From Halorhabdus tiamatea SARL4B (lineage in GTDB: Archaea > Halobacteriota > Halobacteria > Halobacteriales > Haloarculaceae), in contig NC_021921.1 of assembly GCF_000470655.1 (NCBI RefSeq), positions 806,001 to 870,000 of the forward strand: a stretch of DNA of 64,000 nt, read 5' to 3'. Under the pieces are notes generated by a model. The model worked only from the letters and a program-made list of their open reading frames with translations, was not told where the DNA came from and ran no database searches. Positions 581 through 20,833 of the stretch are shown here, one piece after another (the first letter of the stretch is position 1; every line of letters starts with the position of its first letter). The position numbers and the translations under genes were made by a program.

Positions 581-3451
581 ATGACAGACGATAGATTACA
601 CATTCACGGCGACAGGCGGACCTTCCTGAAGTCCGTCGGGGCACTGGGGGCGGCAACTGCAGTCGGGTCGGGGACGATTGGGTCGGTGGCAGCCGACAAC
701 CACCTCGACGAGTATCACCAGACACTGCAAAGTGAACTCCAGGAGCAGTATAACTTGCCGGCTGGCTCGTTCCTCTTCGGGGCGACCGAGCAAGCAACGG
801 TCGACAGTTTCGAATTCCAGTCGGGGGACAGCGGGAATCTCTCGGAGATCTCGATCGACAACGACAGCGTCCCGATCACACAGGGCGTCCAAATCGAGGT
901 AAACGAAGAAGGAGCAGATTCCTGGACGTACTCATACCAGCGGTTCCTCGAAGAGCAGTCCTTCGAGGAGGGAGACGTCCTCCTCGGGGTCGCGTACCTC
1001 CGCAGTGAGACCGACGGCGCACAGACGGAGGCGTACTTCAAATACCGGTACAAGGACGCCGAGGGCGACGACTGGAGCTATCAGAACGCGAACTACATCA
1101 CGGACAACGCGGCCGTCCAACCGGGCGAGGAATGGACCAGATATTACTTCCCGATCGAAGTCGGATCCCGTCCGGGTTCGATCCGGGACGCGTACGTCGA
1201 GTTCTGGCTCGGGATGGCCCAGCAGACCATGGAATTCGGCGGGATGGCGCTAATCGATTACAGTGACGCCGATGTCGGGATCGGCAACCTCCCGAGCGGG
1301 GAGGCAGTGCCGCCCGAGGAGAGCAGTGGCTATCAGATATGGACGGACACCGACGGTCCGTATTACTCGGGACTCGTCAGTGACCTCAAAGGGTTCAACC
1401 TGGGTGGCGCGGGCAAGTTCGCGTACGGGACGACTGAAGCCGCGACGTTCGACACCTACGAGGTCGCCGGTGGCAGCTCCGACCTTGCCAATCGGGAATC
1501 ACTCGACGTCGGCGACGACGTCCCGTTCTCGGAGGCGGCCCGGATCGAAGTGACCGAACAGGCCGAGGAGGACTGGCAGGTCAACTTCAAAGCGTACGGC
1601 GATCGGGCACTCGAAAGCGGCGACGTGTTGCTCGGCGTCGCGTACATGCGCGCTCCCGAAGGCGAAACGTCGATCACCTACAAGATGACCTCCTCGGGCG
1701 ACGAGTCGGCCAACTACGTCACCAAACCGCGCCCGCCGCTTACCAGCGAGTGGAAGCGGTTCTACTTCCCGATCGAAGCCGGAAGCGCCGCCGCATCCGG
1801 CGAGTGGTGGACCGAGATCTGGCTCGGCGCACAGGCCCAGACCGTCGACATCGGCGGTCTGGCGGTGATCGACTTCGCCAAGGGCGTCTCGGTCGGTGAC
1901 CTGCCTGCCTGGGAACAAGAGATCAACGAGGAATGGGAAGACGAAGCGGATGCCCGGATCGAAGAGCACCGCAAGACCGACTTCGCGGTCGAAGTCGTCG
2001 ACGGCGACGGCAGCGCGGTCGAGGGTGCCGATGTCGAGGTCGCAATGCAGGAACACGACTTCAGCTTCGGCACGGAGGTCACGGCCGACCATCTGATTCC
2101 GAACACCGAGCCAGGTGATCAATACCGAGAAGTCATCACGGAGAACTTCAACACCGCCGTCCTGGGCAACCACCACAAGTGGCGCTTCTTCGAGGAGGCA
2201 CAGGACATCGCCGACGCGGCCACCGAGTGGCTCGTCGAGCAGGATATGACGATCCGCGGGCACGTCTGTCTGTGGGCGGCCGTCGACTCCTACGCCGTGC
2301 CCGAAGACGTCGTCGCGGCGATGGGCGTCGACTGGTCGGAGGTCGAGAACCCGGAACTCGATCCGGAGTACGTCCGCGATCGGACGATGTCTCACATCGA
2401 GGAGATCATCAACCACTACGCCGACTTCAAGGACTACGGTAGCGTCATCGACGAGTGGGAAGTCCACAACGAGACGACCCACGTGCCCGGATTCATCAAG
2501 GCAGTCCGGGGTGTCGGTCCCGACGAGGAACTCGACATCAATGCCGTCGAAGCACCGGTTCTCGCGGAGTGGCACAACCACGCCGAGGATGTCGCCCCCG
2601 ACGATGTCGGGGTCGCGATCAACGACTACAACACCATCGAGGGGCCGTATCAGTCGACGCGTGACAACCACAAGCGAATGGCCGAGTTCCTGATCGAGAA
2701 CGACGTCGATCTCGACGGGATCGGCCTCCAATCACACTTCAGCCAATCGTCGGCACTCACGCCGTCCGAGATCTGGGAGGCCCTGGAGTTCTACAGCGGC
2801 CTCGGTGCCGGCATCCGGATCACCGAGTTCGACATGTCCGACGACACCTGGATGGAAGCCGACAAGGCCACCTTCTTCAAGCAGTTCCTGAAGATAACCT
2901 TCAGCCATCCGAACGCGGAGACGTTCATGGTGTGGGGCTTCCAGGACTCCCTCCACTGGCGGGACGACGCACCGTTCTTCGACTCCCAGTGGAACCCCAA
3001 ACCGGCACTGGACGTCTGGCAGAACCTGCTGTTCGACGAATGGTGGACAGAGAAGTCGGGCAGCACGGACGCCGACGGGATGTTCTCGACGGACGGGTTC
3101 AAAGGCGAGTATCGGATCACGGCGACCGACGGCGAGATGGCCGGCGAAACTACGGTTTCGATCGACGACGACACCGACGCCGTGACGGTCACGCTCGGCG
3201 AGACCGGCGACGGTGAGGACGAACCGGTCACGCTCCCCGGTGCGGACGGACCGTCCCAGGACCACGACGGCGACGGGCTCTATGAGGACGTCGACGGCGA
3301 CGGCAAGCGGAGCATCGCGGACGTCCGGTCGCTGTTGAACAACCGCAACGGTGACACGGTCCAGGCCAACGCTGAGGCCTACGACTTCACCGGCGACGGC
3401 AGCGTCGACGCCGGCGACGTGCTCGCGCTGTTCCGGAAGTTCTACCGGTAA
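581..3451 (+). CDS. Tat-exported GH10 endo-xylanase with two CBM-like domains and a dockerin
   Basis: Probable endo-1,4-beta-xylanase acting outside the cell. Residues 12-37 form a Tat signal (DRRTFLKSVG, then a hydrophobic stretch). Two homologous beta-rich, CBM-like modules follow at about 50-230 and 265-440, each with a YYFPIE or FYFPIE strand and a final GG-I/V-D strand. The GH10 barrel spans about 490-830, with acid/base E631 in EWEVHNE and nucleophile E749 in RITEFDM. A small beta domain at about 835-885 and a dockerin at about 893-956 end the protein. The 956 residues far exceed a bare GH10 domain. The catalytic family is clear; the CBM families and exact substrate are inferred. It probably relies on the Tat system encoded later in the window. 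Confidence 0.93.
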   Translation: MTDDRLHIHGDRRTFLKSVGALGAATAVGSGTIGSVAADNHLDEYHQTLQSELQEQYNLPAGSFLFGATEQATVDSFEFQSGDSGNLSEISIDNDSVPITQGVQIEVNEEGADSWTYSYQRFLEEQSFEEGDVLLGVAYLRSETDGAQTEAYFKYRYKDAEGDDWSYQNANYITDNAAVQPGEEWTRYYFPIEVGSRPGSIRDAYVEFWLGMAQQTMEFGGMALIDYSDADVGIGNLPSGEAVPPEESSGYQIWTDTDGPYYSGLVSDLKGFNLGGAGKFAYGTTEAATFDTYEVAGGSSDLANRESLDVGDDVPFSEAARIEVTEQAEEDWQVNFKAYGDRALESGDVLLGVAYMRAPEGETSITYKMTSSGDESANYVTKPRPPLTSEWKRFYFPIEAGSAAASGEWWTEIWLGAQAQTVDIGGLAVIDFAKGVSVGDLPAWEQEINEEWEDEADARIEEHRKTDFAVEVVDGDGSAVEGADVEVAMQEHDFSFGTEVTADHLIPNTEPGDQYREVITENFNTAVLGNHHKWRFFEEAQDIADAATEWLVEQDMTIRGHVCLWAAVDSYAVPEDVVAAMGVDWSEVENPELDPEYVRDRTMSHIEEIINHYADFKDYGSVIDEWEVHNETTHVPGFIKAVRGVGPDEELDINAVEAPVLAEWHNHAEDVAPDDVGVAINDYNTIEGPYQSTRDNHKRMAEFLIENDVDLDGIGLQSHFSQSSALTPSEIWEALEFYSGLGAGIRITEFDMSDDTWMEADKATFFKQFLKITFSHPNAETFMVWGFQDSLHWRDDAPFFDSQWNPKPALDVWQNLLFDEWWTEKSGSTDADGMFSTDGFKGEYRITATDGEMAGETTVSIDDDTDAVTVTLGETGDGEDEPVTLPGADGPSQDHDGDGLYEDVDGDGKRSIADVRSLLNNRNGDTVQANAEAYDFTGDGSVDAGDVLALFRKFYR

Positions 3452-3484: not shown

Positions 3485-3646
3485 CCGTCCGAACAGCGAT
3501 TGGTACGGGGGTCGAGGTGGGTTTCTCGTGGCCAATCGAACTGCTCGTTGGGCCCCAGAGCAAACCATCCGGCCGACGATCAAGACTCGTACGGTGGAAT
3601 GAAAGCTAGCCAGAACGGTTATTCCCGTCAGCGGCATATCGCTTGC

Positions 3647-6370
3647 ATGGGCAAGCGTCTGATCGGAATTCTCGTCGTCTTCATCGCACTCGGGATCGGT
3701 ATTCCCGCGGTCGGTGGCGTCCAGCTGGGTGACGTCGATCACGGTGGGACGGTCGACGTGTCCGCGGCCTCCCCACCAGCCACGAACGGAACAACGCCGG
3801 TCGATCCCGAATCCGAGCGCGTGTCGGTCCTGATAGTCTTCGAGAACGGGACTGCGCGTGAAGCGGCAACGTTCCCGGACCGGGACGTATCCGTCACCGG
3901 TGGGCACGACGTCGATTTCATGCCGGTGCTATACGCGAACGTCCCCACCGAGGCGATCGAGGCCATCGAGCGACGACCGGACGTCCAGGCTGTCTATCAG
4001 GACAGCAAGGTGTCGAACCCGGACGACGCCGTCGCCAGCGAGACGACCCTGCGATCACAATCTGGCGGCCAGGTCACGCCGTGGGGGGTCGATCGCATCG
4101 ACGCGCCCGAAGCGAACGGGGTCCTCGACGATGCCGCGAAGGCGAACGTCACCGTCGCCGTCCTCGATACGGGGATCGATTACACGCACGCGGATCTCAA
4201 TGCGTCGGTCTCGTGGGGCGCGAACTTCACGGACGGTGTCGACGAAGTCGGCCTCCCGACAGCGATGGACGACAACGGCCATGGGACTGCGGCTGCGGGC
4301 GTCATCGCAGCCGCTGACGACGATCACGGCGTCGTCGGCGTGGCACCCGGCGTCGAATTGTACGCGATGAAGGTCGTGAACAAGAATGGGAGGGGGCGTA
4401 TGAGTTGGCTGATCTCCGGGATCGAGGCCGCGATCGACGGCGAGGACGGCGAACTCGCCACCGCGGACGACGCGGACGTCCTCTCGATGAGTCTGGGTGG
4501 TCCCGTAGGGAACGACGGATTGGCGGACGTGATTGACTACGCAAGCGATCACGCAGTCGTCGTCAGTTCGGCCGGCAACGGCGGGGACGGAGCGACAGAC
4601 ACGAACGACGTCACGTATCCGGCCAAATACCCAGGAGCCATCGCAGTCGCGGCGACGAACCAGTCGGATCAAACGACCACTTGGAGTGCAGAAGGAAACG
4701 AAGTCGAACTTGCAGCACCTGGTCACGCGATCAGGACGACCTGGCCGGACGGCGAGATAGTGATCTCGGGCACGTCGTTTGCAGCCCCGCACGTCTCGGG
4801 CGTGGCGGCGCTCGTCATCGCCCAGGATGTCGCCGACGGAACCCGTGATCTCTCGGAGATGGCCGTCAGGAACCGGCTCCAGAACGCGACGCTGGACATC
4901 GAATCGAGCGGAATCGACCTGCGGAGCGGCCACGGACTGCTCCTCGCCGACGACGCGGTCGGCGTCGACTCGGTATCCGTGACGAACTTCTCGGTGGTGA
5001 ACCTCTCTCCGGGTGAGAAAGCCGTCACGACGGGCGAGACGGTCGACGTCTCCGCGACGGTCGTGAACGTGGGCGACGCGGCAGGATCACAGACGGTCTC
5101 GCTCACACGCAACGGGTCGATCGTGGACGAGACGACGGCGACGCTTTCGGCCGGGGAGACGACGACCGTCACCTTCGCCGGTGTCTTCGGCGGCCTCGGC
5201 CCTGGGACGTACGCCTACGGCGTACAGACCGCCAACGATAGCCAGACGGCGACGCTCAGTGTGGGGTCACCGCCGAACTTCACCGTGACCGCGCTGTCGC
5301 CGGAATCGATCTCACTGGCAGGTGGCGAATCGTTCGACGTCTCCGCAACGATCGAAAACACGGGCGAGCAGGAAGGGACGCAGTCGGTCGCGTTGACAGT
5401 CGATGGACGGGAGACCAGCAGCCGAACCGTAAGTCTTGAGCCGGGAGAGACCCGGACGGTGACGTTTGCTGACGTGAGTACAGCGGACTTCGAGCAGGGA
5501 GAGTACGCCTATCGCGTGGGGACGGCAAACGATAGTCGGACCGGGGCACTGACGATAGCGGACCGCTGGTTCCGGGCTTCCGTTCCGGATCGCGTCGTCC
5601 CCGGAGAGAATGCGACGATACCGTATACGCTCACGAACGCCGGGGACAGCGCTGTCGGCGACGCGTCGTTCGTGGTTGCCGCGGAGCAGAACGGGACGGA
5701 CGTCAGTCCGTCAGTCGGGTGGAAATCGGACGGACTGGCAGCGGGTGCGTCCTGGACCACGAACGTCACACTGGCAGTGGATCGTGATTTCGACGGTGAG
5801 GTCGTCCACGTCAACGCGACCGGACAGCTCGGGGGCGAGCGAACGAGCGTGAACGCGACGATCCCGGTGACGGAGACCGACGTCGAACTGCACGCTCCCG
5901 AGCGGATCACCACGACACCCGGCTCATCGATGAACGTCAGCTACACGCTCGAAAACACCGGGACTACCAAGCCCTCCGCCGGTGGGATATTCGTCGCCTC
6001 GACGACCGGGCCGCTGTCGGTCAACGGATCCAAGGCCCGCTTCCTCGGGTTCCAGGCACCGGTCCCGGCCACCGGGGAGTCGGTCGGCCACAGCTTCACG
6101 ATCGACGTCCCGGAGTCAACACCACCCGGAACCTACCGGATCGCTGGACAGGGTGTCCTCGGGACGGAGATCGACGACTGGGCGAACACGACCGTCGTCG
6201 TCACGGAGGGGCTCGATCGCTTCGATCAGAACGAGCCGGCCGGTGAGATCGGATTCCAGGACGTCCTGGACGCGATCGGGGCGTACAACGAGGGTGAGAC
6301 GGTCGGTGGAAGCCCGGTCACGTTCCAGGACGTGCTCGACGTCATCGGGGCGTACAACAGCGGTTCGTGA
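3647..6370 (+). CDS. Secreted subtilisin-like serine protease with CARDB-like repeats and FQDVL tail
   Basis: Extracellular S8 protease (halolysin-like). The start at MGKRLIGILVV is chosen because a typical signal peptide follows at once; the frame stays open to 3500 but that extension is not signal-like. An I9-type propeptide spans about 60-130. The triad is D174 (AVLDTGID), H212 (DNGHGTAA) and S377 (SGTSFAAPH). About four CARDB-like beta domains follow from residue 443 (NFSVVNLSPGE, NFTVTALSPES and two more divergent units). The tail (859-907) has two copies of FQDVLDxIGAYN, a degenerate EF-hand or dockerin-like module also present on the surface protein at 6716. No PGF-CTERM or membrane anchor is seen, so the tail may retain the protease at the cell surface (inference). 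Confidence 0.92.
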   Translation: MGKRLIGILVVFIALGIGIPAVGGVQLGDVDHGGTVDVSAASPPATNGTTPVDPESERVSVLIVFENGTAREAATFPDRDVSVTGGHDVDFMPVLYANVPTEAIEAIERRPDVQAVYQDSKVSNPDDAVASETTLRSQSGGQVTPWGVDRIDAPEANGVLDDAAKANVTVAVLDTGIDYTHADLNASVSWGANFTDGVDEVGLPTAMDDNGHGTAAAGVIAAADDDHGVVGVAPGVELYAMKVVNKNGRGRMSWLISGIEAAIDGEDGELATADDADVLSMSLGGPVGNDGLADVIDYASDHAVVVSSAGNGGDGATDTNDVTYPAKYPGAIAVAATNQSDQTTTWSAEGNEVELAAPGHAIRTTWPDGEIVISGTSFAAPHVSGVAALVIAQDVADGTRDLSEMAVRNRLQNATLDIESSGIDLRSGHGLLLADDAVGVDSVSVTNFSVVNLSPGEKAVTTGETVDVSATVVNVGDAAGSQTVSLTRNGSIVDETTATLSAGETTTVTFAGVFGGLGPGTYAYGVQTANDSQTATLSVGSPPNFTVTALSPESISLAGGESFDVSATIENTGEQEGTQSVALTVDGRETSSRTVSLEPGETRTVTFADVSTADFEQGEYAYRVGTANDSRTGALTIADRWFRASVPDRVVPGENATIPYTLTNAGDSAVGDASFVVAAEQNGTDVSPSVGWKSDGLAAGASWTTNVTLAVDRDFDGEVVHVNATGQLGGERTSVNATIPVTETDVELHAPERITTTPGSSMNVSYTLENTGTTKPSAGGIFVASTTGPLSVNGSKARFLGFQAPVPATGESVGHSFTIDVPESTPPGTYRIAGQGVLGTEIDDWANTTVVVTEGLDRFDQNEPAGEIGFQDVLDAIGAYNEGETVGGSPVTFQDVLDVIGAYNSGS

Positions 6371-6715: not shown

Positions 6716-9313
6716 ATGACAGGAAATTCAACACCACAGGAGAAGGTAAGGGCCGTATTCCTTGCCACGCTCATGGTGCTGTCCGTCTTCGCCATGTCCG
6801 CGGCATTCGCGGGCGCGGCAGCGGCAGGGAACTCCGGCGGAGATTGGGGAACCACCCTGCCAGCAGTCGGCGGCACCGACTATACAGATACGGGTAGTAC
6901 AACAACCGAGGCCGTCTCGGAAATCGCAAACGTAACCTTCAGCTCGGAAGGTGACATCAACAACGTCACCGTTAACGCAACGGGCGGCAACGAAGGGAAC
7001 GTTCCGGCCAGCGCGATCGACGAGGTGACGGTTTCCCTCAACACCACTGACGGTGTTGTCACCGACTCGGAGATCTACGACAGCCACGATACGCTTGTCG
7101 ATTTCGCCGATGTCGATGGAAACGTCACGAACGTGTCTGACCTCATCGTCAAGGCACAGATAGCTCAGAATGCCGCCAACAATTCCGTCATCGACGCGAA
7201 CCTGACGGTCAAGACGAACCCGTCGGGTTGGTACGATACGGACGGTACTCAGACAATCCTCAACGACAACATAGGGTACTTCTCGGGCCTTATCACGGAC
7301 CAGAATAACAACCCCATCCCTGCAGAAGTCATCGTCGAAGGCGATGATAGTACCACTAGCGGGATCTACAAAACAACGACCGCCAACGATAACGGCCAGT
7401 ACACGATTGGCGTTCCTGAGGGGAACTATACAGTGACTGCTAATCTGGAAGGGTACAATTCTGCATCCCCGAAGGACAGTGAGGTGACTGCGGGCGAGAC
7501 GACGTCCGCGAATTTCGTCCTCGAACAGATCATCAACGCTGGCGAGATCGACGTAACCCCGTCGACCGATAGCGCTGAGGCTGACGGCTCGACGGAAGTC
7601 GAATACGAGATCGAACTGTTCGACGACGATGACGGATCGCCGTACGAGGACGACGTTGAGGTTACGGTCGACGCACCCGACGAGGGGGCGATTACCCTCA
7701 GTGATACAACAGTTACTACCACTGACGGTAACGCCACCGTGACCGCAACGTCCTCCGAAATCCAGGCTGCAGAGTTCACGTTCACTGCGCAGTCGAACGA
7801 ATCGGTCTCCGAGACCGTGACTACCCAGTTCGTGGCCGCGGACGGTAACCTTGCCCTTTACGGCGATGTCCAAGAATGGGCCACCAACGCTGACGTCGAG
7901 GGCGCAACCGTCTGGGCTGCGTACCCCGGCGTGAACCAGACACAGGCCTTCGCTGAGGAGGAGACGAACCTCTCCACGATGACCGCAGCGAGCGGTGAAT
8001 ACCAGATCAGCGGTATCAACGAGAACCGCCTTGGTGCGAACAACGCGCTCAACGTCTACGTTGCTGCGAGCGGGTACAACAGTATCAACGGGACTGCTGC
8101 GGACGGTAACGTTACTGGCTTCGGAAATGTCAGCCAGTACTACGCAACCAACGCGCAGGTCTCGATGAACCCTGCCGGAAGCGACGTGGACAACACAACG
8201 AGCAAGGACTTCACCGTTTCGCCGGTCGAGATCACGCCGGTCTACGACGTCACGGTCGACGTGACCCAGGATGGCGACTCGATCGCCCGAATGCCGACGC
8301 AGGATGTCGCTGACGTCGAGTACGAGGTCCTGGTCAAAGCCGACACCGACCCGGACAGCGAGTTCGAACCGGTCTCGGAAAGCGACCTTGTGACCCCGAG
8401 TGAGGTCGACGTGGTGTTCAACATCACGACTAACACCTCATCCGGTAACCTGCTCCCGGCTGATGCGAACGATCAGGTTGTCACCTACGGTGACGACGTC
8501 CAGTTCGAGACCACTCGAACACCGTCCCCGGACAACGTGACGATCAACGCGTCCGTCGTGAACGAGAACGACCAGGAATTCAACGACAGCACTGGCGTTG
8601 AAGTCTACGGCGTCGGTGAGATCACCGGCGACGTTGTCAACGACGACTCACCGGCAGACAACCTGCCCGGTGCGAGCGTTACGCTGATCAAAGAACCCGA
8701 CACGGCGAACGAGGAAATCGTGGCGAACACGACTACTGGACCGGAAGGGTCCTACTCGTTCACTGAAGTCGAGACTGGCTTCGACTACCGCATCGACGCG
8801 GAATTCGAAGGCGAGACCGGGTTCAACGACATCACCAAGAACACCGCCGGCACGACGAACGCGGACGTCGTGATCGTCGGTGTGGAAGCCCCCAAAGGCT
8901 TCACCGTCGTTGACATCAACCCTGCCAACGTGACCGTCACACAGGGCGATGTTATCGACGTCACGGCGACGATCAACAACGACGCCCCCGACGAGGACAC
9001 GCGTGACGTCGAGTTCCGCGTGACCGACTCGAACGGCAGCGAAGTCGTGTCCATCACGGAAAGCGTCACTCTCCAGCCTGGAGAGAACACGTACACCTTC
9101 AGTGGCATCGACACGTCCGCTCTGGCTGCCGGTAACTACACGCACGGCGTGTACACCGACACGAACAGCCAGACGGCAACGCTGACCGTCGAGAGTAGTA
9201 GTGGCGGAGACGTCACCTTCCAGGATGTCCTGGGTGTCATCACCGACTACAACAACGATGACGCATCGTTCCAGGATGTCCTCGATGTGATTACCGCGTA
9301 TAACAACAGCTAA
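6716..9313 (+). CDS. Secreted surface glycoprotein with haloarchaeal S-layer signal, CARDB-like domain and FQDVL tail
   Basis: An 865-residue exported beta-domain protein, probably in the cell envelope. The N-terminus (VRAVFLATLMVLSVFAMSAA) matches the haloarchaeal major surface glycoprotein signal peptide. Carboxypeptidase-regulatory-like or Ig-like domains follow, such as GYFSGLITDQNNNPIPAEV near 193-270 and GEITGDVVNDDSPADNLPGA near 637-725. There are many N-x-S/T sites. A CARDB-like domain (about 727-826) precedes two FQDVL repeats (833-865), the same C-terminal cassette as the neighbouring protease. There is no PGF-CTERM tail. The stop is 15 bases before the next surface-protein gene, so the two are almost certainly cotranscribed. 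An S-layer accessory role is inferred. Confidence 0.8.
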   Translation: MTGNSTPQEKVRAVFLATLMVLSVFAMSAAFAGAAAAGNSGGDWGTTLPAVGGTDYTDTGSTTTEAVSEIANVTFSSEGDINNVTVNATGGNEGNVPASAIDEVTVSLNTTDGVVTDSEIYDSHDTLVDFADVDGNVTNVSDLIVKAQIAQNAANNSVIDANLTVKTNPSGWYDTDGTQTILNDNIGYFSGLITDQNNNPIPAEVIVEGDDSTTSGIYKTTTANDNGQYTIGVPEGNYTVTANLEGYNSASPKDSEVTAGETTSANFVLEQIINAGEIDVTPSTDSAEADGSTEVEYEIELFDDDDGSPYEDDVEVTVDAPDEGAITLSDTTVTTTDGNATVTATSSEIQAAEFTFTAQSNESVSETVTTQFVAADGNLALYGDVQEWATNADVEGATVWAAYPGVNQTQAFAEEETNLSTMTAASGEYQISGINENRLGANNALNVYVAASGYNSINGTAADGNVTGFGNVSQYYATNAQVSMNPAGSDVDNTTSKDFTVSPVEITPVYDVTVDVTQDGDSIARMPTQDVADVEYEVLVKADTDPDSEFEPVSESDLVTPSEVDVVFNITTNTSSGNLLPADANDQVVTYGDDVQFETTRTPSPDNVTINASVVNENDQEFNDSTGVEVYGVGEITGDVVNDDSPADNLPGASVTLIKEPDTANEEIVANTTTGPEGSYSFTEVETGFDYRIDAEFEGETGFNDITKNTAGTTNADVVIVGVEAPKGFTVVDINPANVTVTQGDVIDVTATINNDAPDEDTRDVEFRVTDSNGSEVVSITESVTLQPGENTYTFSGIDTSALAAGNYTHGVYTDTNSQTATLTVESSSGGDVTFQDVLGVITDYNNDDASFQDVLDVITAYNNS

Positions 9314-9328: not shown

Positions 9329-12076
9329 ATGAATATGAAATCACACAAGGCGATCGTACTGACAGCACTGATGGTGTTGTCGGTCTTCGCCATGCCGATG
9401 TCGGCAGCAGCACAGACCGTCGACTCGGCTGACCGTACTGTGGATACCACAGAGGTTCAGCCGGGCGACGTAGTTACTGTGACGGTTGACGTCACAGCCA
9501 CAGAGACCGGAAACATATCCGTTACAGAAGAGTTCAGTCCCGCGTTCGCGGACGTGAGCCTCACAGACCTGCACGGGACCATTCCCGCAGCGCAGGCAGC
9601 GGGCAATGAAGGAGTAACACTCGCCTACCAAGGTGAAGACTCAGTGAGTGTCACTTACGAAGTGACGATCCCGGACGACGCTGAAGCTGGAGACACCTTC
9701 ACGATCGAAGGATCCGCATCGGTTGACGGCAACGCCGCCGACACTGGCACGACCACGCTTACCGTGCCGACCGATGGAGGGAACGGCGAGGAGCCGCCCG
9801 CCGAACCGAGCGCACCCGCACCCTCGGACGTCGACACCATCTACCAGGGTGAGGAACTGACCGTCGACGTGAGCGGCACGTCCGTCGGGTCCGGCGACAT
9901 CCTCCAGATCCGTCAGGGTCTAATCGGTGAGGATGGCGATACGCTCGCCGCGACAGCGACCGTCGACGAAAACGGTATGGCCACGTTCAGCGGTGACGAC
10001 ACGGCTGAACTGGCCGCGGAAGGCGTCGATCGATACCACTTCTTCCAATCGAGTGGTGCGGAGATTGACGGGTCCCAGTTCGAAGTCGTCAAACAGGACC
10101 TCACTGCGGAAAGCTACGGGGACGTCTACTACGACAACGAGGCCCCGAGCGACAACGGCGTGACGATCTCCTCGGACAACATCGACCTTGCCGGTGGATC
10201 GTTCAACGTCACCATCGCCTCCGATGACCTCGATCAGGACGAACTGAACGAGGTCTTCGGCGGTGCGGCGTCCGCCCACGGTGACGAGAAGATCATGCTG
10301 ACGGTCGACAGCGCGGAGAAAGACTTCGATGTGGACTTCTCCGGCTACGACTACGGCACGTACAACTTCACGGTCGAATCGCTGACCTCGAACGCCGAGG
10401 ACACATTCGACATCGAATACGCTGAAGCCGGCGAAGTCTCTGCGTCGTTCGCAGATACCGTCTTCAGTCAGGAGCGCGGTGACTACGCGGAGTTCACCGT
10501 CGACCTCCAGAACACCGAATCGGCCACCGTCCACATCACGGATGGTTCCGGTGAATACGAATCGGAACTCACCGTCACGGACAGTAACGACGGCGAGGAC
10601 GCTGACGACGGACAGGTCACTGTCCAGATGAACACGTTCCTCGCTGGCGGTCACGGTGACGCCTACAGCCCGGCAGACGGCGCTGACTCCGTCACCGTCG
10701 ACAGCGACAGCGAGAGTAGCATCGGTGACTACCGTCTCGCTGCGGGTTCGTACGACCTGACGGTCACGGCCGGCGGCGAGGAGCAGGACGTCGCCACGCT
10801 CTCCCTCGAAGAACGGTCGACGACCGGAATCAGTTCGATCGTCGCACCCAGCAGCGCTGACTTCGGTAGCGCCGACGCCATCACGAACGGCTCCGAGCTC
10901 TCGGAGGTCGCCTTCGGTGACCACCTCGCGCTCGAAGTCGAAGCGTCCGGCGTCTTCACCTACCTCAACGACGACGTCAACGCGCAAGGGATGAGCATCA
11001 CCTTCTCGCAGGAGAACTTCGAAGGCCAGTACGGGAACGCCCCGACCTTCGACGTCAGCGGTAGTGCGTTCGACCTCGTCGAGGACGCGGACAACAACCG
11101 CTTCTTCGTCACGGTCGACACGGACGCGCTCGACAACGTCGATGCCGGTGACGAGTACTCTGTCACCTTCGAAATCAACGGCACCAACAACCCGTACGTC
11201 GCCGACGGTGAGACTGAGTCCGTGAGCACGACCGTCACGTTCCTCGAACGGACGAGTTCCTTCGGCGTCGTCGAAGCACCGTACCAGGTGCTCGCTACTG
11301 ACGACACCGAAGTTCGCGGTACCAGCAATCTCGCACCCGGTAGCGAGATTACTGTCCAGGCACTGAAGTCCGGTGACTTCCTCCGCCAGGACACCAGCGT
11401 CGAAGTCATGGAAGACGGCACGTGGACAGCGACGTTCGACTTCGCCGACCGTCAGGTCGGTGAAGAGTTCGACCTCTCGCTCAAGCGGGCTGGCAACACT
11501 GACGCCGTCGACGCTGTCTTCTCGGACACCGCCGAGTGGGAGACCTCCGGTGCGTCCGAAGAACTCCAGCAACGCGTTAACGAGCTCGAGACGCTCCTGA
11601 GCGAGACGATGGACGAACTCGAGCAGAAGAACGCCACGATCGAAGAGCTGCGCACGCAGCTCAACGAGAGTGGCGGCGCAAGCCAGGAACTCCTCGACCA
11701 GAAGAACGCCACGATCGAGGATCTCAACCAGCAGCTCGCACAGGCTGAGAGCGACCTGCTCAACTCGACCACCACGATCGCCGATCTCAACAGCGAGATC
11801 GAAGCGCTGAACCTCTCGGTCCGCACGCTGGAAGCGGATAACGCTGATCTCGAGAGTCAGCTCGAGAGCCTCCAGAGCACGCTCGACGAGAAGAACTCGA
11901 CGATCGAGGACCAGCAGTCCACGATCGACGAGCAGAAGTCCACGATCAGTGACCTCCAGAGCCAGCTCGAAGAGGCACAGCAGACGACGACCACTAGCGG
12001 ACCCGGCTTCACCGCCGTGCTCGCGCTGGTCGCGCTGATGGGCGCCGCACTGCTCGCCGTCCGCCGCAAGCAGTAA
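9329..12076 (+). CDS. S-layer-type surface glycoprotein with coiled-coil stalk and PGF-CTERM anchor
   Basis: Candidate major cell-surface glycoprotein (915 residues). A signal peptide (ALMVLSVFAMPMSAAA) shares LMVLSVFAM with the upstream gene product. Beta-sandwich domains of haloarchaeal S-layer type follow, including IYQGEELTVDVSG near 171 and a last domain around 645-735. Residues about 743-885 form a long coiled coil built from repeats such as QKNATIEELRTQL and QKNATIEDLNQQL, with several N-glycosylation sites (NAT, NST). A TTTTSGPGF motif near 886-894, one hydrophobic helix and RRKQ form a PGF-CTERM sorting signal, processed by archaeosortase A. Most haloarchaeal S-layer proteins have a Thr-rich stalk here, so the coiled coil is unusual. 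A terminator follows. Confidence 0.87.
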   Translation: MNMKSHKAIVLTALMVLSVFAMPMSAAAQTVDSADRTVDTTEVQPGDVVTVTVDVTATETGNISVTEEFSPAFADVSLTDLHGTIPAAQAAGNEGVTLAYQGEDSVSVTYEVTIPDDAEAGDTFTIEGSASVDGNAADTGTTTLTVPTDGGNGEEPPAEPSAPAPSDVDTIYQGEELTVDVSGTSVGSGDILQIRQGLIGEDGDTLAATATVDENGMATFSGDDTAELAAEGVDRYHFFQSSGAEIDGSQFEVVKQDLTAESYGDVYYDNEAPSDNGVTISSDNIDLAGGSFNVTIASDDLDQDELNEVFGGAASAHGDEKIMLTVDSAEKDFDVDFSGYDYGTYNFTVESLTSNAEDTFDIEYAEAGEVSASFADTVFSQERGDYAEFTVDLQNTESATVHITDGSGEYESELTVTDSNDGEDADDGQVTVQMNTFLAGGHGDAYSPADGADSVTVDSDSESSIGDYRLAAGSYDLTVTAGGEEQDVATLSLEERSTTGISSIVAPSSADFGSADAITNGSELSEVAFGDHLALEVEASGVFTYLNDDVNAQGMSITFSQENFEGQYGNAPTFDVSGSAFDLVEDADNNRFFVTVDTDALDNVDAGDEYSVTFEINGTNNPYVADGETESVSTTVTFLERTSSFGVVEAPYQVLATDDTEVRGTSNLAPGSEITVQALKSGDFLRQDTSVEVMEDGTWTATFDFADRQVGEEFDLSLKRAGNTDAVDAVFSDTAEWETSGASEELQQRVNELETLLSETMDELEQKNATIEELRTQLNESGGASQELLDQKNATIEDLNQQLAQAESDLLNSTTTIADLNSEIEALNLSVRTLEADNADLESQLESLQSTLDEKNSTIEDQQSTIDEQKSTISDLQSQLEEAQQTTTTSGPGFTAVLALVALMGAALLAVRRKQ

Positions 12077-13209: not shown

Positions 13210-14403
13210 ATGAGCAGCCATACGGCAGTCGTCCTCGCGGCCGGCGAAGGGACGAGACTCCGCCCGCTGACCCGGAACCGACCCAAGCCGATGCTCCCGG
13301 CTGGCAACCGGCCGATTCTGGAGTACGTCCTCGACGCGCTCGTCGAGGCTGGGATCGAGGAACTCGTCCTCGTCGTCGGCTACGAACGCGATCGCGTCCA
13401 GAATCACGTCGGCCCGACCTACCGGGGACGTCCTGTCACGTACGTCCACCAGGAGAAGCAACTCGGCACTGGCCACGCCTTACGTGAGGCCCGCGACGTC
13501 GTCGAAGGGCCACTGGCCGTCGTCAACGGCGATACGCTGATCGACCCGACGATCGTCGCGGACGTTCTCGAACGCTTCGAGACGAGCGAGGACGAGGCGA
13601 CGCTCGCGGTCCTCGACGGGCCGGATCCCGCGGACTACGGGGCCGTCCTCCTCGAAAACGGAACAGTCACGGACCTGGTCGAAAAGCCCGACGCCGGCGA
13701 GTATCGCTACATCAACGCGGGCGTCTACGCGTTCGCGCCGTCGATCTTCGAGGCGATCGAGGCGACGCCACGCGAGGACGGCGAACTCTCGCTGACTGAT
13801 GCTTTGGAGGACGCGATCGAGGACGGCTACGTCGGGGCAGTCGAGACCGACGGAATCTGGGTCGACGCGACCTATCCGTGGGACCTCCTCGAACTGGCGC
13901 GAGAAGTCCTCGCTGATGGCCGACTCGACCCTCCGGAATCGAGCGAGCAGGTCTGGATCGACGCGAGCGCGTCCGTCCACGACGCGGCGACGATCCAGCC
14001 GCCGGCAGTCGTCGGTCCGGACTGTGAGGTCGGGGCTGGCGCAGTGATCGGGCCGAACGTCGCACTCGGCCGGAACGTGACCGTCGGTGCGAACGCGACG
14101 CTCTCGAGGGCTGTCGTCGACGACGACAGCCGAATCGGCCCCGGGTCGACGCTGCTCGACGCCGTCGTCGGGCAGGCGGCCACCCTCGGACCGAACGCGG
14201 TCGTCTCGGGCGGGCCGGGAGACGTTCGCGTCGGGACAGAGATCTTCGAGGACGCACCGCTGGGCGCACTGCTGGCCGACCGAGTCGAGGCCGACGGCGA
14301 CGTCAGCTTCGCGCCGGGGACACTGGTCGGGCCGAACGCCCACCTGGCGACCGGGGTCACCGTCGACGGCTACGTGGCCGAAGGCGCGGAGGTGCGGCGC
14401 TGA
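13210..14403 (+). CDS. glmU: Bifunctional sugar-1-phosphate nucleotidylyltransferase/acetyltransferase, GlmU-like
   Basis: Makes a nucleotide sugar, probably UDP-GlcNAc from GlcN-1-P or GlcNAc-1-P. The N-terminal nucleotidyltransferase domain (1 to about 235) starts with VVLAAGEGTRLRPLT and RPKPMLP, the classic signature. The C-terminal half (about 250-397) shows the hexapeptide pattern of a left-handed beta helix, for example VGPDCEVGAGAVIGPNVALG. Its TGA overlaps the ATG of glmS (TGATG), so the two are translationally coupled and supply amino sugars for surface glycans. The precise sugar is inferred; archaeal members may use Glc-1-P or other substrates. Confidence 0.88.
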   Translation: MSSHTAVVLAAGEGTRLRPLTRNRPKPMLPAGNRPILEYVLDALVEAGIEELVLVVGYERDRVQNHVGPTYRGRPVTYVHQEKQLGTGHALREARDVVEGPLAVVNGDTLIDPTIVADVLERFETSEDEATLAVLDGPDPADYGAVLLENGTVTDLVEKPDAGEYRYINAGVYAFAPSIFEAIEATPREDGELSLTDALEDAIEDGYVGAVETDGIWVDATYPWDLLELAREVLADGRLDPPESSEQVWIDASASVHDAATIQPPAVVGPDCEVGAGAVIGPNVALGRNVTVGANATLSRAVVDDDSRIGPGSTLLDAVVGQAATLGPNAVVSGGPGDVRVGTEIFEDAPLGALLADRVEADGDVSFAPGTLVGPNAHLATGVTVDGYVAEGAEVRR

Positions 14404-16208
14404 TGTGTGGGATCATCGGCTGTGTGGGCCGAGGAACAGAGACGACAGACGTCCTCGTCGACGGCCTCTCGACCCTGGAGTACCGCGGGTACGACTCGGC
14501 GGGCGTCGCGCTGGCCGACGGCGACATCGAGGTCACCAAGCGCTCGGGGACGATCGACGACCTCAGAGAGGCGGTTGCCGCCGAGGGGCCGGCGGGAGAG
14601 TTCGGCATCGGCCACACCCGCTGGAGCACGCACGGGCCGCCGACCGACGAGAATGCCCATCCCCACACCGACTGTACCGGCGACGTCGCCGTCGTCCACA
14701 ACGGCATCATCGAGAACTATCAGGAACTCAGAGACGAACTCGGAGCGGATCACGAGTTCAAGAGCGAGACGGACACCGAAGTCGTCCCACACCTGATCGA
14801 GGAGGCCCTCGAGGCGGGAGCCGATCCCGAGACCGCCGTGCGCGAAGCTGTTTCCCGGCTCGAGGGGAGCTTCGCCGTCGCCGTCGTGATCGCCGGCACG
14901 GAGTCGGTCTTTGCGGCCAGACACGACTCGCCACTCGTGCTCGGACTCGGGAGCGACGGCGAGGGACCGACCGATGCCTACTATCTCGCGAGTGACGTCC
15001 CGGCGTTTCGGGCGTACACCGACCGGGTCGTCTACCTCGAGGACGGCGAGTTCGCCCGGCTCTCGCCCGACGGCTGGACGGTCACGACCATCGACGGCGA
15101 GCCAGTCGAGAAGACGGTCGACGTCGTCGAGTGGGACCCCGAGGAGACGGGCAAGGCTGGCTACGACCACTTCATGCAGAAGGAGATCAACGAACAGCCC
15201 CGGTCACTGCGCCAGGGACTCTCCGAGCGGGTCGACGAACTCGCCGGCGAGGTCGACATCGGCGACCTGGCGTACCTCAACCCCCGTGGCGTCCAGCTTG
15301 TCGCTTGCGGGACGAGCTATCACGCGGCACTGTACGGCGCAGCGCTGTTTCGAGAGGCCGGCGTCCCGGCCCAGGCGTTCCTGGCCCACGAGTACGCGAG
15401 TGCGCCGCCGCCGGTCGGTGACGACCTCGTGATCGGCGTGACCCAGAGCGGCGAGACGGCCGATACGCTCTCGGCGCTCCGGGCGGCCCGCTCGAAGGGC
15501 GCGACGACGCTCGCGGTCACCAACGTCGTCGGCTCGACGGCGGCCCGCGAGTGCGATCACGTCTTCTACATCAAGGCCGGCCCGGAGATCGGCGTCGCCG
15601 CCACCAAGACCTTCGCCTCGCAGTTGACGGCGCTCAACCTGCTGGCGACCGGCATGGTCCCGACCAAGGACGACCGCGAGTCGATTGCCGCACTCAGGGA
15701 TCTCCCCGCCGACGTCCAGGAAGTCCTCGACGACTCGTCGGCCGAGGCCGTCGCCGAAGAATACCTCGACAGCGACGCCTACTTCTTCCTGGGCCGGGGG
15801 CTCCAGTACCCCGTCGCCCTGGAGGGCGCACTCAAGATGAAGGAGATCACGTACAAACACGCCGAGGGCTTCGCCGCCGGCGAGTTGAAACACGGCCCGC
15901 TCGCGCTCGTGACGGCGAACACCCCCGTCTTCGCGTTGGTGACCGGCGACGGCGAACAGGCCCGCAAGACCATCGGCAACGTCAAGGAAGTCGAGGCGCG
16001 TGACGCGCCGGTCGTCGCCGTCACCGACGGCCAGAGCGACGTCGAACGCTACGCCGATCACGTCCTCACGGTCCCGGAAAGTTCGCCCCGGACGGCCGCG
16101 GTGCTGAGCAACGTCCAGTTGCAACTCGCGGCCTACCACACCGCCGCGAAACTCGGGCGGTCGATCGACAAGCCCCGGAACCTGGCGAAAAGCGTGACCG
16201 TGGAGTGA
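14403..16208 (+). CDS. glmS: Glutamine-fructose-6-phosphate aminotransferase (isomerizing)
   Basis: Converts fructose-6-phosphate and glutamine to glucosamine-6-phosphate, the first committed amino-sugar step. The start is fixed by MCGIIGC, where Cys2 is the class II amidotransferase nucleophile after Met removal. The glutaminase domain spans about 2-220 (HTRWSTHG, HNGIIENYQEL). Two SIS sugar-isomerase domains follow (ACGTSYHAALYG and ALEGALKMKEITYKHAE). The ending ends in KPRNLAKSVTVE, typical of GlmS. The 601 residues are the normal length. The gene overlaps glmU-like by one base. Confidence 0.97.
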   Translation: MCGIIGCVGRGTETTDVLVDGLSTLEYRGYDSAGVALADGDIEVTKRSGTIDDLREAVAAEGPAGEFGIGHTRWSTHGPPTDENAHPHTDCTGDVAVVHNGIIENYQELRDELGADHEFKSETDTEVVPHLIEEALEAGADPETAVREAVSRLEGSFAVAVVIAGTESVFAARHDSPLVLGLGSDGEGPTDAYYLASDVPAFRAYTDRVVYLEDGEFARLSPDGWTVTTIDGEPVEKTVDVVEWDPEETGKAGYDHFMQKEINEQPRSLRQGLSERVDELAGEVDIGDLAYLNPRGVQLVACGTSYHAALYGAALFREAGVPAQAFLAHEYASAPPPVGDDLVIGVTQSGETADTLSALRAARSKGATTLAVTNVVGSTAARECDHVFYIKAGPEIGVAATKTFASQLTALNLLATGMVPTKDDRESIAALRDLPADVQEVLDDSSAEAVAEEYLDSDAYFFLGRGLQYPVALEGALKMKEITYKHAEGFAAGELKHGPLALVTANTPVFALVTGDGEQARKTIGNVKEVEARDAPVVAVTDGQSDVERYADHVLTVPESSPRTAAVLSNVQLQLAAYHTAAKLGRSIDKPRNLAKSVTVE

Positions 16209-16268: not shown

Positions 16269-18599
16269 ATGGAGATCATCGACAAGCAGGGCCGGTTGTT
16301 CGGGACGGTGAACGTCGTCGATGCTCTCGTCGTCCTCCTGGTTCTCGCGGTCGGTGTCGCCGGAATCGCATTACTCTTCGGTGGTGATGGTGGTGGTGGG
16401 CCGACGGGACCGACCGAAACCCGATACGTCACACTCGACGCCGGCGTCCAGCCGGAGTACGTCGTCGGGGCGGTCGAATCCGGTGACAACGTCACGCTCG
16501 ATGGCGCATACGAGGGCGCGAACGTCACAGACACCTACTTCACGTCGGCCGGGAACGGGACCAGCGCAGTGCTCCGAGTGGAAATCACTCACGCTGCGAA
16601 CACGACGGCCACGGTCGACGGCGAGCCGCTTCGGATCGGCCGCCGACTCGGGGTCGAAAACGACGCGTACATCTTGAACGGGACGATTCGTGGTGTCAGC
16701 ACCGAGCCGGACCTCCCGACGGCGGACCGGCGAGTCGTCCTCCGTGGGACGACCGCCGACGGCATCGCGAGCGAGATCACCGCCGGCGAGGAGATCGAGG
16801 TCGCTGGTAGCCGGGTCGCGACCGTCGAAGACGTGGCGGTGTACGACGCCCAGCAGCCCGGACGGCGAACGCTCTATCTCGACGCCAGCCTCCGAACGTA
16901 CGTCACCAGCGATGGGGTCAGATTCGGCAATACCCGGGTCGAGACCGACCGGACGCTGTCGCTGCCGATTGCGGGCGTCCAGTTCAGCGGGACGATCGAC
17001 CGCGTCGGCGGCGGCCTCGAACGGACCACCGAATCAGTACTCACGACGAGCGTCGTTGACGCCGACGTCGCCCGGCAGATCGAGACCGGCGACACCTACG
17101 AGGTGGCGGGCCACCCGATCGCGACAGTCGAGAACGTCACCGCCTACGACACCGGGAATCCAGACCGCAAACGCGTCTACCTCGGCATGTCCGTCGAGAC
17201 CCTCGGGTACACCGACGGGCACCAGTTCGGGTCCCAGACACTCAGGCGAGGCGCGACGTTACCGTTCCGAACAGACAGCTATGAGTTCACCAGTGAGATT
17301 CGTCAGCTTGGAACAGCAGACTTAGCGAGGACGGGCGAATCCGTGATCGTTCGCAACGTCGTCTCGGCGGAGACGGCCAGGCAAATCGAGACCGGAGATA
17401 CCTACGAAGTGGCGGGCCATTCGATTGCCACTGTCGAGGACGTCATCGCCTACGAGACGAACGATCCGGATCGTAAACGCGTCCACGTCGGACTCTCCGT
17501 CGAGACACTCGGCTACGGCGAGCGAACCCAGTTCGGAACACAGCCGATCGAAGACGGAGTGACGCTCCCATTCAGGACGGACCAGTACGACTTCAGCGGC
17601 GAAGTCACCCGCGTCGGGACCGCAGACCTGCAGGTGACCACTGAAGCGGTGCTGGTCACCGACGTAGTCGACGCCGAAGACGCACGGGCGATGCAGGAAG
17701 GTGACACCTACGACGTTGCTGGCCACTCGATTGCCACCGTCGAGGACGTCATCGCCTACGACACCGGGAACCCCGACCGCAAACGCGTCTACGTCGGCCT
17801 CTCGGTCGAGACACTCGGCTATGGAGAGGAGCCGCGTTTCGATACGCGGACCGTTCAACCGGGCACGACACTCCCCTTCCGGATGGAACGCTACGACTTC
17901 AGCGGCGAAGTAACCCGTGTCGGGACCGCAGACCTTCAGGTGACGTCCCAGGACGTGCTCGTGACGGACGTGGTCGAGACGTCCACCGCAGCGGCGGTGA
18001 GCGAGGGTGACGCGTATCGCGTCAGCGATCGGACGGTCGCAACCGTCGAGAACGTCGCCGTCTACGGGACGAGTAACCCGGACCGCAAACGCGTCTACGT
18101 CGGCCTCTCGGTCGAGGCGCTCGGGTACGGAGAACGCCCGCAGTTCGGGGCGAACAACCCACTGGAAGAAGGAGTGACACTACCGTTCCGCACGCTCACC
18201 TACGAACTGAACGGCCAGATCGTCCGACTCGACGCGCTCGAGCAGCGCGGGCAGGCGACGACCCGCACGGTCACACTCGAGATGGAGAATGTGGTCCCCA
18301 GCCGAGCAGACAGCGTCGAGGCTGGCCAGACCGAGACGAACGCCGGACAGACGATCGCCCAGGTCAACGACGTGACGGTCCAGCCGGCCGTGATTACGCT
18401 CACAAGCGAGGACGGGAACATCTACGAGCGCGAACACCCGGTGAACAAGGACGTCACGCTCACCGCCGCGTTGCAGGTCCGAGAGGACGATCGGACGACC
18501 CGATTCAAAGGCCGAGCCGTGCAGGAAGGCGATAGCATTACCCTCGACCTTGGGGTGACGACCATCCGGGCGACAATCGTCGACCTCGACGCCGCGTGA
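16269..18599 (+). CDS. Membrane-anchored protein with about seven tandem DUF4330-like repeats
   Basis: The N-terminus (IIDKQGRLFGTVNVVDALVV) is the DUF4330 signature with one transmembrane helix at about 15-38. The rest, probably outside the cell, is a tandem array of 101-106 residue units beginning near residues 68, 171, 272, 374, 476, 578 and 684. Typical unit text is GDTYEVAGHxIATVE, then NPDRKRVYVGLSVETLGYGE, then LPFRT. The four central units are very similar even in DNA (period about 306 bases), implying recent duplication. The usual DUF4330 protein, as I recall it, carries one such unit. The gene lies between glmS and a sugar transferase, suggesting a role in envelope glycan, but no catalytic motif is seen. 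Confidence 0.8.
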   Translation: MEIIDKQGRLFGTVNVVDALVVLLVLAVGVAGIALLFGGDGGGGPTGPTETRYVTLDAGVQPEYVVGAVESGDNVTLDGAYEGANVTDTYFTSAGNGTSAVLRVEITHAANTTATVDGEPLRIGRRLGVENDAYILNGTIRGVSTEPDLPTADRRVVLRGTTADGIASEITAGEEIEVAGSRVATVEDVAVYDAQQPGRRTLYLDASLRTYVTSDGVRFGNTRVETDRTLSLPIAGVQFSGTIDRVGGGLERTTESVLTTSVVDADVARQIETGDTYEVAGHPIATVENVTAYDTGNPDRKRVYLGMSVETLGYTDGHQFGSQTLRRGATLPFRTDSYEFTSEIRQLGTADLARTGESVIVRNVVSAETARQIETGDTYEVAGHSIATVEDVIAYETNDPDRKRVHVGLSVETLGYGERTQFGTQPIEDGVTLPFRTDQYDFSGEVTRVGTADLQVTTEAVLVTDVVDAEDARAMQEGDTYDVAGHSIATVEDVIAYDTGNPDRKRVYVGLSVETLGYGEEPRFDTRTVQPGTTLPFRMERYDFSGEVTRVGTADLQVTSQDVLVTDVVETSTAAAVSEGDAYRVSDRTVATVENVAVYGTSNPDRKRVYVGLSVEALGYGERPQFGANNPLEEGVTLPFRTLTYELNGQIVRLDALEQRGQATTRTVTLEMENVVPSRADSVEAGQTETNAGQTIAQVNDVTVQPAVITLTSEDGNIYEREHPVNKDVTLTAALQVREDDRTTRFKGRAVQEGDSITLDLGVTTIRATIVDLDAA
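16779..18330 (+). repeat. In-frame tandem repeat array of about 306-bp units
   Basis: Units begin near 16779, 17082, 17388, 17694 and 18000. Blocks such as TCGAGGACGTCATCGCCTAC recur almost unchanged in adjacent units, so this is DNA-level duplication inside the DUF4330-like gene, not only protein similarity. The outermost units are more diverged. Confidence 0.75.
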
Positions 18600-18640: not shown

Positions 18641-19270
18641 ATGCGCCTGAATACTCGAGGATCCCGGACTGCAACCGCGGTGACCGAGGGGGCGAAACGC
18701 CTCAGAAGTGCGCTATCCGGTGCCAGCGTCACGGCGGCCGCCCGTCGGACTTTCGCGGTAGCCAGTGGTGCGTTCGCCGACAGCAAAGCCGGACGATTCG
18801 TCCACGGAGCCAAACGAACCGTCCGCACGTCCTGGCTCTACCGGTGGCTCACCGCCGAGCCGGAGCCCGACGTTATCGTGATCGACCTTCGAGAGACGGC
18901 GATCGTCGGCCCGCTGTTAGGCGTCCTGGACTGGTTTCTCGTCAGAGTACTCACGTACGGGGAGGAGTCGGTGGCGTCGGTTGCAGGAAAGCGCGGTGTC
19001 GACATCCTCCGTGCTCGACCGATCCAGGCAATGAGTACGGTCGTCCTCGCGGCGGTCGCCGCGAGCCTGGCGGTAGTGATCGCCGGCGGAACGCCGACGG
19101 CGGGTGCGATCGGCCTTCGGCTCCTCGCGTTGAGTCTCGCGCTCGCGGGAACCCGTCTCAGGTACTCGGCCGAGGACCTCGCCGAGACGCGTGTCTACAG
19201 CGTGCTCGTGGCGTTGCTGGAACCGCCAGAGCCACCAGAGAGTCCCAGGGAACGCCGGGACGATCCCTGA
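18641..19270 (+). CDS. Membrane protein of unknown function in the glycan cluster
   Basis: A 209-residue protein I do not recognise. The first 90 residues are basic with Ala/Thr-rich helices. Hydrophobic segments lie at about 88-105 (VGPLLGVLDWFLVRVL), 128-148 (AMSTVVLAAVAASLAVVIAGG) and 152-170 (AIGLRLLALSLALAG). A proline-rich EPPEPPESP tail ends it. It sits 41 bases after the DUF4330-like gene and 108 bases before the sugar transferase in the same direction, so it may be part of one operon. No enzyme motif is visible. Confidence 0.7.
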   Translation: MRLNTRGSRTATAVTEGAKRLRSALSGASVTAAARRTFAVASGAFADSKAGRFVHGAKRTVRTSWLYRWLTAEPEPDVIVIDLRETAIVGPLLGVLDWFLVRVLTYGEESVASVAGKRGVDILRARPIQAMSTVVLAAVAASLAVVIAGGTPTAGAIGLRLLALSLALAGTRLRYSAEDLAETRVYSVLVALLEPPEPPESPRERRDDP

Positions 19271-19378
19271 GCGATCGCCGGCCGGGATCACCGAGACCAC
19301 GCCGACGAACTCCCGTTTTCGTCCCGTCGTGTGTACCGGTCATAGCCTTTATCCCCGTCGCCGTCACACGCCAGGGTG

Positions 19379-20833
19379 ATGAAAGGTCACTGGCGGTATC
19401 GGGGAGCGAGCGTCCTCGGAACCGCCGTGCTCTCCTTTCTTGCCGTCGTCGTCGTCAATGGCCCCCTGGTACGAACACTACTGGATGCTGTTCCGGTAAT
19501 CCAAACGCTCGCTACCGCGCCGGCGACGGGCTCGGAACTCCTCTTCGAGGCGTCGACGACGACCGCTGTCATCCTCGCGGCGATGGTCCCGCTGTACAAG
19601 CCACGTCCGCGCCGAATCCTCGACACCTGGATGGCAGCGGCTCGTCGGACGACCCTCGCATTCCTCTCGCTTGCGACGATCGGCTACTTCGATTACACCT
19701 ATCGCCTCCCGCGGGCGACGCTACTGGTTTCTGGGGGGCTTCTCCTCGTGGTGCTTCCGCTCTGGTTCGTCGCCATTCGTCGTCGACCGGCGAGAACCGG
19801 TGAACGGACGATCATCATCGGGGACGATCCCGAGACGATCCGGGATATCCTGGCCGCAGTGGACGGAGCCGTGATCGGCTACGTCTCACCTCCCACGGCG
19901 TACGCGACGGGTGATCAGCCCACAACGGTCCGACCGCGTGAGACAGACGGGGGGACAGTCACCGACGAGATCGGCGAACTTTCCTATCTCGGCGGCCTCT
20001 CCCGTCTCGGGGAGGTCCTGGTCGACTACGACGTCGATACGGCCGTCCTCGCGTTCGACCGGCCGGACCGCGCGGAGTTCTTCGGGGCGCTTGACACCTG
20101 CTACGAGCACGGCGTCGCCGCGAAGGTCCATCGCGATCACGCCGACGTGGTGCTGACCGACGGGACGGCCGGCGGTGAGCTCGTCGACGTCGATCTCGAA
20201 CCGTGGGACTGGCAGGACCACCTCGTCAAACGCGTCTTCGATCTCGCGTTCGCGGCGATCGGACTTGCCGTTCTCTCACCGGCGATCGCCGTCATCGCCG
20301 TGGCGATCAAACTCGAAGATAGCGGCCCGATCTTCTACAGTCAGGACCGGACAGCCACGTTCGGCGATACCTTTACCATTTATAAGTTCCGGAGCATGGT
20401 ACCGAATGCCGAGAAACAGAGCGGCGTGAAACTCAGCGAAGAAGACAAAGGGGAACGCGATCCACGGGTGACCAGACTAGGACGAGTTCTCCGGCAGACA
20501 CATCTCGACGAGGTCCCACAGCTGTGGTCGATACTGGTTGGAGACATGAGCGTCGTCGGTCCACGTCCGGAACGGCCGAAACTGGACGACGACATCGAAA
20601 ATAGTGTCTCGGAATGGCGACGACGGTGGTTTGTCAAACCGGGGTTAACGGGATTAGCCCAGATCAACGACTTGACGGGACACGAGCCGGGCCAGAAGTT
20701 CCGTTACGACATGGCGTACATCCGCAAACAATCGTTCTGGTTCGACATCCAGATAGTCATCAGACAAATCTGGAAAGTGCTTTCGGACGTTTCCGAGACC
20801 GCAACCGGAAGCAACGACCCCAGCGAAAAATGA
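19379..20833 (+). CDS. Polyprenyl sugar-phosphate transferase (exopolysaccharide or N-glycan initiation)
   Basis: Transfers a sugar-1-phosphate from a nucleotide sugar to a membrane polyprenyl phosphate, starting glycan assembly. The N-terminus has four hydrophobic helices (about 8-130), a soluble Rossmann-like middle domain follows (about 135-275), then the bacterial sugar-transferase domain from about 280, with KRVFDLAFAAIGLAVLSP, PIFYSQDR, YKFRSM, DEVPQLWSILVGDMSVVGPR and KPGLTGLAQ. I chose the ATG at 19379 over the GTG immediately before it. It converges with the epimerase gene, the stops being only 3 bases apart. Confidence 0.93.
   Translation: MKGHWRYRGASVLGTAVLSFLAVVVVNGPLVRTLLDAVPVIQTLATAPATGSELLFEASTTTAVILAAMVPLYKPRPRRILDTWMAAARRTTLAFLSLATIGYFDYTYRLPRATLLVSGGLLLVVLPLWFVAIRRRPARTGERTIIIGDDPETIRDILAAVDGAVIGYVSPPTAYATGDQPTTVRPRETDGGTVTDEIGELSYLGGLSRLGEVLVDYDVDTAVLAFDRPDRAEFFGALDTCYEHGVAAKVHRDHADVVLTDGTAGGELVDVDLEPWDWQDHLVKRVFDLAFAAIGLAVLSPAIAVIAVAIKLEDSGPIFYSQDRTATFGDTFTIYKFRSMVPNAEKQSGVKLSEEDKGERDPRVTRLGRVLRQTHLDEVPQLWSILVGDMSVVGPRPERPKLDDDIENSVSEWRRRWFVKPGLTGLAQINDLTGHEPGQKFRYDMAYIRKQSFWFDIQIVIRQIWKVLSDVSETATGSNDPSEK

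Follow-up and report, generated by a model that had tools for sequence, protein, structure and literature searches.

DUF4330 (PF14221) is a known, uncharacterised protein family whose layout is an N-terminal membrane helix followed by a conserved domain, and its Pfam model comprises one unit of 167 positions; a literature search found no paper naming it. To our knowledge, no DUF4330 protein is in use in the bacterial exopolysaccharide pathways that begin with a WcaJ-type transferase (Bac_transf, PF02397). One N-terminal helix followed by seven tandem barrels is also the plan of Escherichia coli LetB. Multi-MCE proteins such as LetB and PqiB were placed only in Proteobacteria and related phyla by a survey of bacteria (PMC10665443), and the role and length of the pore-lining loop of MCE domains have been described (PMC8420772). 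Archaeal exopolysaccharide biosynthesis is itself little known, as pointed out in work on Haloarcula hispanica (PMC9943897).

The window analysed here, a stretch of 64,000 nucleotides from Halorhabdus tiamatea SARL4B (contig positions 806,001 to 870,000), encodes a new long variant of DUF4330 whose genetic context is more telling than its repeat count. The open reading frame, on the + strand at 16269-18599, specifies 776 amino acids. Its GC3 is 0.80, while the two remaining frames of that strand have 0.68 and 0.47. Its product shows the DUF4330 layout and matches the full-length PF14221 profile (98.2 bits, E 7e-28; cut-off 27.6), sharing a conserved first unit, a conserved last unit and the membrane segment I-D-x-x-G-R-L-F-G-x-V-N-x-x-D-A. 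It departs from the Pfam model in having seven units rather than one, and from most haloarchaeal members, which have 2-5. A single hydrophobic segment at about residues 8-42, within which the model places a helix at 16-36 (16314..16376), is preceded by basic residues and followed by acidic repeats.

Seven units lie behind this helix, all on the + strand. Unit 1 (residues 50-147; 16416..16709), which holds five of the six N-X-S/T sequons of the protein, and unit 2 (residues 152-248; 16722..17012) have positional orthologues in relatives. Units 3 (residues 255-351; 17031..17321), 4 (residues 357-453; 17337..17627) and 5 (residues 459-555; 17643..17933) form an expanded central class. Unit 6 (residues 561-658; 17949..18242) is the positional orthologue of unit 4 in five-unit relatives, and unit 7 (residues 664-776; 18258..18596) is a diverged terminal unit and the best conserved between relatives. 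Among units 3-6 identity is 49-71% for protein and 69-80% for DNA, whereas units 1, 2 and 7 have diverged to 17-33% protein identity with the other units. A preliminary description of this DNA had proposed about seven units of about 102 residues, with a 306-bp period, behind one membrane helix, and this was borne out: seven units are found, the period is clear at the DNA level, hydropathy and the structure model agree on a single N-terminal helix, and the model repeats the same order of elements seven times. Its view that four units are nearly alike in DNA, with recent unit duplication, does not survive the identity of only 69-80% among the central four; very recent copying is unsupported, and a recent near-identical tandem duplication is rejected.

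The family had been described as single-unit, but a unit profile run over 80 named haloarchaeal loci found mostly 3-4 units within a range of 2-5, in a sample whose several species per genus and few duplicates make the locus counts non-independent. A few single-unit haloarchaeal members exist, so that unit number spans 1-7 overall, and a multi-unit architecture is ordinary in haloarchaea. With seven units here and 2-5 as the normal range, the family cannot be defined by copy number. Seven is uncommon, as the check on repeat number in relatives shows, yet it is not unique to the window: an 812-residue protein from another haloarchaeal family (locus L111) also has seven units, together with the same membrane segment and, in its genome, the same downstream partner family described below. 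Units 2 and 4 of that protein are 95% identical. It grew by duplication of a two-unit block, whereas the window protein grew by multiplying a single central unit, and seven units are thus an upper extreme that has arisen at least twice through different duplications.

The closest sampled congener has five units. Units 1, 2, 6 and 7 of the window protein have positional counterparts there, while units 3, 4 and 5 jointly match a single congener unit, a class of which the window protein has three copies and the congener one, in keeping with the length variation that had been predicted. Support within the central group of the unit tree is weak (0.4-0.85), so a gain of two units by the window protein and a loss by the congener both fit. 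Other arrangements were seen in passing. A congener carries a single-unit DUF4330 gene between glmS and a sugar transferase, on the opposite strand and with the partner not adjoining (L115:8941-9519). One Halostagnicola has two tandem DUF4330 genes, of two and three units (L090:7875-10547). In Halorubrum amylolyticum one of two DUF4330 copies is split over two frames (L088:2055-3310), which may point to gene decay or to an error in sequencing.

The most conserved neighbour of DUF4330 is the gene immediately downstream (18641..19270, + strand), which encodes a 209-residue protein of an unnamed family with no match in Pfam or NCBIfam. Members share a near-invariant motif, S-x-x-Y-R-W-L-T-A-E-P-D-P-D-V-I-V-I-D-L-R-E-T-x-T-V-G-P, and, towards the C-terminus, a stretch rich in proline; a hydrophobic or membrane stretch is optional, being present in some members only. 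At 62 DUF4330 loci the partner is the very next gene and shares the strand, frequently with a 4-bp start/stop overlap of the kind typical of translational coupling. Among 391 sampled genomes of the class, 185 have DUF4330 and 175 have the partner; 172 have both, 13 have DUF4330 without the partner and 3 have the partner without DUF4330 (Fisher 2e-90). DUF4330 and this downstream family are a two-gene module, newly recognised here. Along the partner chain, in the window gene and in the family alignment, amphipathic-looking segments starting with S or T recur.

Beyond the partner lies a gene for a polyisoprenyl-phosphate sugar-1-phosphate transferase (PF02397; EPS_sugtrans/WcaJ-like by profile matches; 19376..20833, + strand), which probably starts a surface-polysaccharide chain. 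Upstream, a GlmU-like nucleotidyltransferase with hexapeptide repeats (13210..14403, + strand) is followed by a glmS-like aminotransferase gene (14403..16208, + strand). The placement of DUF4330 between glmS and the transferase that had been reported is therefore right on the upstream side, where glmS is directly adjacent, and incomplete on the other, where the 209-residue gene intervenes. Such company is widespread, as glmS-, glmU-, epimerase-, UppP- or glycosyltransferase-type genes accompany DUF4330 at 69 of the 80 loci, in clusters partly named by eye.

The link to the transferase extends across genomes. PF02397 is found in 178 of the 185 genomes with DUF4330 against 63 of the 206 without it (2e-46). 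Since relatedness alone can produce such numbers, the comparison was also made within genera, and the association stays significant for the nine genera in the family of the window where some genomes have DUF4330 and others lack it (Cochran-Mantel-Haenszel p 3e-5). Of the seven genomes in the genus of the window, the four with DUF4330 carry the nearby transferase and the other three do not. UppP, whose role in bacteria is to recycle the lipid carrier, is present in 155 of 185 DUF4330 genomes against 55 of 206 others. Seven DUF4330 genomes lack PF02397, including five with completeness of 98% (G252), 97% (G282), 91% (G383), 88% (G398) and 82% (G406). Conversely, since 63 genomes have the transferase without DUF4330, PF02397 pathways do not all depend on the protein. 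This also sets the locus apart from PF02397 pathways as a group, to which it is otherwise akin through the nearby gene and the tight genome-wide co-occurrence. Co-occurrence points to a shared pathway rather than to contact, and we regard it as strong circumstantial evidence tying DUF4330 to a transferase-initiated surface-polysaccharide pathway.

DUF4330 is probably a component of archaeal surface-polysaccharide assembly that has so far gone undescribed. We propose a model where its one N-terminal helix would anchor the protein in the cytoplasmic membrane and the seven small beta-barrel units would form an extendable stalk outside the cell, extending away from the membrane in the direction of the S-layer. 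From the orientation of the helix, with basic residues before it and acidic repeats after it, and from the sequons, we infer that the repeats face outward. Together with its partner, the stalk would serve the polyprenyl-linked surface-polysaccharide pathway begun by the WcaJ-like transferase. Its action would most likely lie beyond the membrane, on the glycan during or after its growth, as a guide, a length ruler or an anchor. The number of units would set its reach; such a stalk could measure or guide a growing glycan, or keep a finished one near the S-layer. The rod shape, the glycan contact and the role of length are likewise what we infer from this arrangement. Taken whole, as a membrane-anchored extracellular stalk that works with its partner for the WcaJ-like-transferase pathway and acts on the glycan, the proposal has in our judgement about an even chance of being correct. 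The preliminary description had already suggested membrane-anchored extracellular repeats tied to surface glycan assembly, and the helix, the acidic units, the sequons and the transferase co-occurrence all agree with it. The crowding of the sequons into unit 1 counts against the proposal, as does the unreliable geometry between units in the structure model.

A repeated, length-variable ectodomain behind one helix, with an S-layer gene nearby (9329-12076), could also serve to space the S-layer from the membrane or to tether the two, with no direct role in glycan assembly; it would then lie near glycan genes since surface genes cluster, and its unit number would match the height of the S-layer. 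We consider this unlikely. DUF4330 occurs in only 185 of 391 haloarchaea, and its presence goes with that of the sugar transferase even when genomes of one genus are compared, a pattern not required of a general S-layer tether. Unit number also fails to follow the length of the S-layer coiled-coil stalk, since among congeners the stalk measures 153 residues where there are 7 units, 124 where there are 5 and 173 where there is 1, which shows no trend, on three points only. A glycan-acting stalk remains our preferred reading. The module, present in nearly half of the sampled haloarchaea and tied to the transferase, would offer two concrete candidates for extracellular steps in polysaccharide formation, and the series of one to seven units provides natural length variants of one structure.

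Modelling gives a confident picture of the single unit. Unit 5, modelled alone as residues 458-556 in an alignment with 78 others, reached a pLDDT of 94 and forms a compact beta-barrel with one short helix. The full-length AlphaFold model has a pLDDT of 85.7 and a pTM of 0.52, and because of the latter its arrangement of units relative to one another is unreliable. Among solved structures, Foldseek found nothing that matched the single unit below E 0.1, and a library of viral structures yielded nothing with E below 0.001. Its best structural alignments are to the C-terminal barrel of glycine cleavage T-protein and to EF-Tu domain 3 (Z 5.5-6.7), below the value of 8 under which a match means no more than a common arrangement. 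Those barrels differ from the units in having no profile similarity to them (at most 1.8%), and both are intracellular and not tandem. Searching the unit profile against sequences of solved structures returned one match only, to a ribosomal protein at E 0.26, which we attribute to chance.

Repeated barrels in a glycan gene context might instead constitute a substrate-binding or enzymatic ectodomain, for example one that binds or modifies polysaccharide, with copies raising avidity. We hold this to be highly unlikely, as no enzyme family in Pfam or NCBIfam exceeds its cut-off for the window protein, which moreover contains no cysteine. Only three unit positions are 90% conserved (G21, D22 and G75); these look structural, and no conserved cluster of catalytic type was seen. 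The names xylG, CDC48_2 and CbeA also came up and were dismissed, with scores far below their cut-offs.

The resemblance to LetB calls for closer weighing. When the full-length model was compared with the PDB, ten matches had E below 0.001, and all ten were LetB chains (best E 6.5e-9), although this value may be inflated by repeat-to-repeat alignment. Profile comparison of the central units gave a probability of 69% to E. coli MCE domains and 75% to a broader set of 34 MCE domains; the first and last unit classes scored 20% and 7%, with all three classes aligning at the same offset. Controls stayed low, reaching at most 0.9% for 21 unrelated families, 60 column shuffles and a reversal, and at most 1.8% for the EF-Tu domain 3 and T-protein barrels. 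With the shared plan of one N-terminal helix and tandem barrels, seven of them in LetB, these results could suggest an archaeal MCE-like protein whose units oligomerise into LetB-like stacked rings, forming a tube through which a lipid or lipid-linked sugar would leave the membrane and reach the S-layer.

Several observations make such a tube decidedly unlikely in our estimation. MCE domains themselves score 65% against the T-protein barrel in the same profile test, so a shared barrel motif can yield values of this size, and we reject 69-75% as proof of homology to MCE. TM-scores of the full-length model to LetB are low (0.12), because the unit-to-unit geometry differs or is modelled wrongly, and the single unit aligns less well with the MCE domains of LetB, MlaD and Mce4A (Z 4.2-4.7) than with the T-protein and EF-Tu barrels (Z 5.5-6.3 in this comparison), with every value below 8. 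PF02470 has no match in the window protein up to E 1 and none in 59 relatives, and the partners MlaE (PF02405) and PqiA/LetA (PF04403) are absent from all 59 of the relatives' genomes. The long hydrophobic loop that lines the MCE pore is missing as well; loops of the units are short and hydrophilic, with a mean hydropathy of -0.7 to -1.8, against about +0.2 to +0.75 in MCE domains (-0.14 in one). On the absence of PF02470, pore loop and MlaE/PqiA partners, we do not assign the protein to the MCE family, although a LetB-like mode of action keeps a small probability, and there is, unlike for LetB, no outer membrane to connect. Less probable again, in our judgement, is a conduit of MCE-related tandem rings, each chain on one helix, that would carry lipid-linked sugar or polysaccharide between the cytoplasmic membrane and the S-layer with the unnamed partner, and would dispense with both an outer membrane and the known MCE partners. 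If true, the resemblance would extend MCE-type envelope conduits to archaea that have no outer membrane.

Other genes of interest precede the locus in the window. The product of 581-3451 is a GH10 glycoside hydrolase of xylanase type, secreted, with a TAT-like signal in front and a type I dockerin domain at its C-terminus, an archaeal example near surface-glycoprotein genes. It is followed at 3599-6370 by a subtilase-family protease with CARDB domains and, by eye, a dockerin-like C-terminus. The gene at 6716-9313, directly upstream of the S-layer gene, encodes a surface protein of the halo-signal kind; it has carboxypeptidase-regulatory and Ig-like domains, and two C-terminal dockerin-like repeats can be made out by eye. 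The S-layer-type glycoprotein itself (9329-12076) has a coiled-coil-like stretch of about 150 residues before its PGF-CTERM anchor, and the corresponding stretches of congeners measure 124 and 173 residues.
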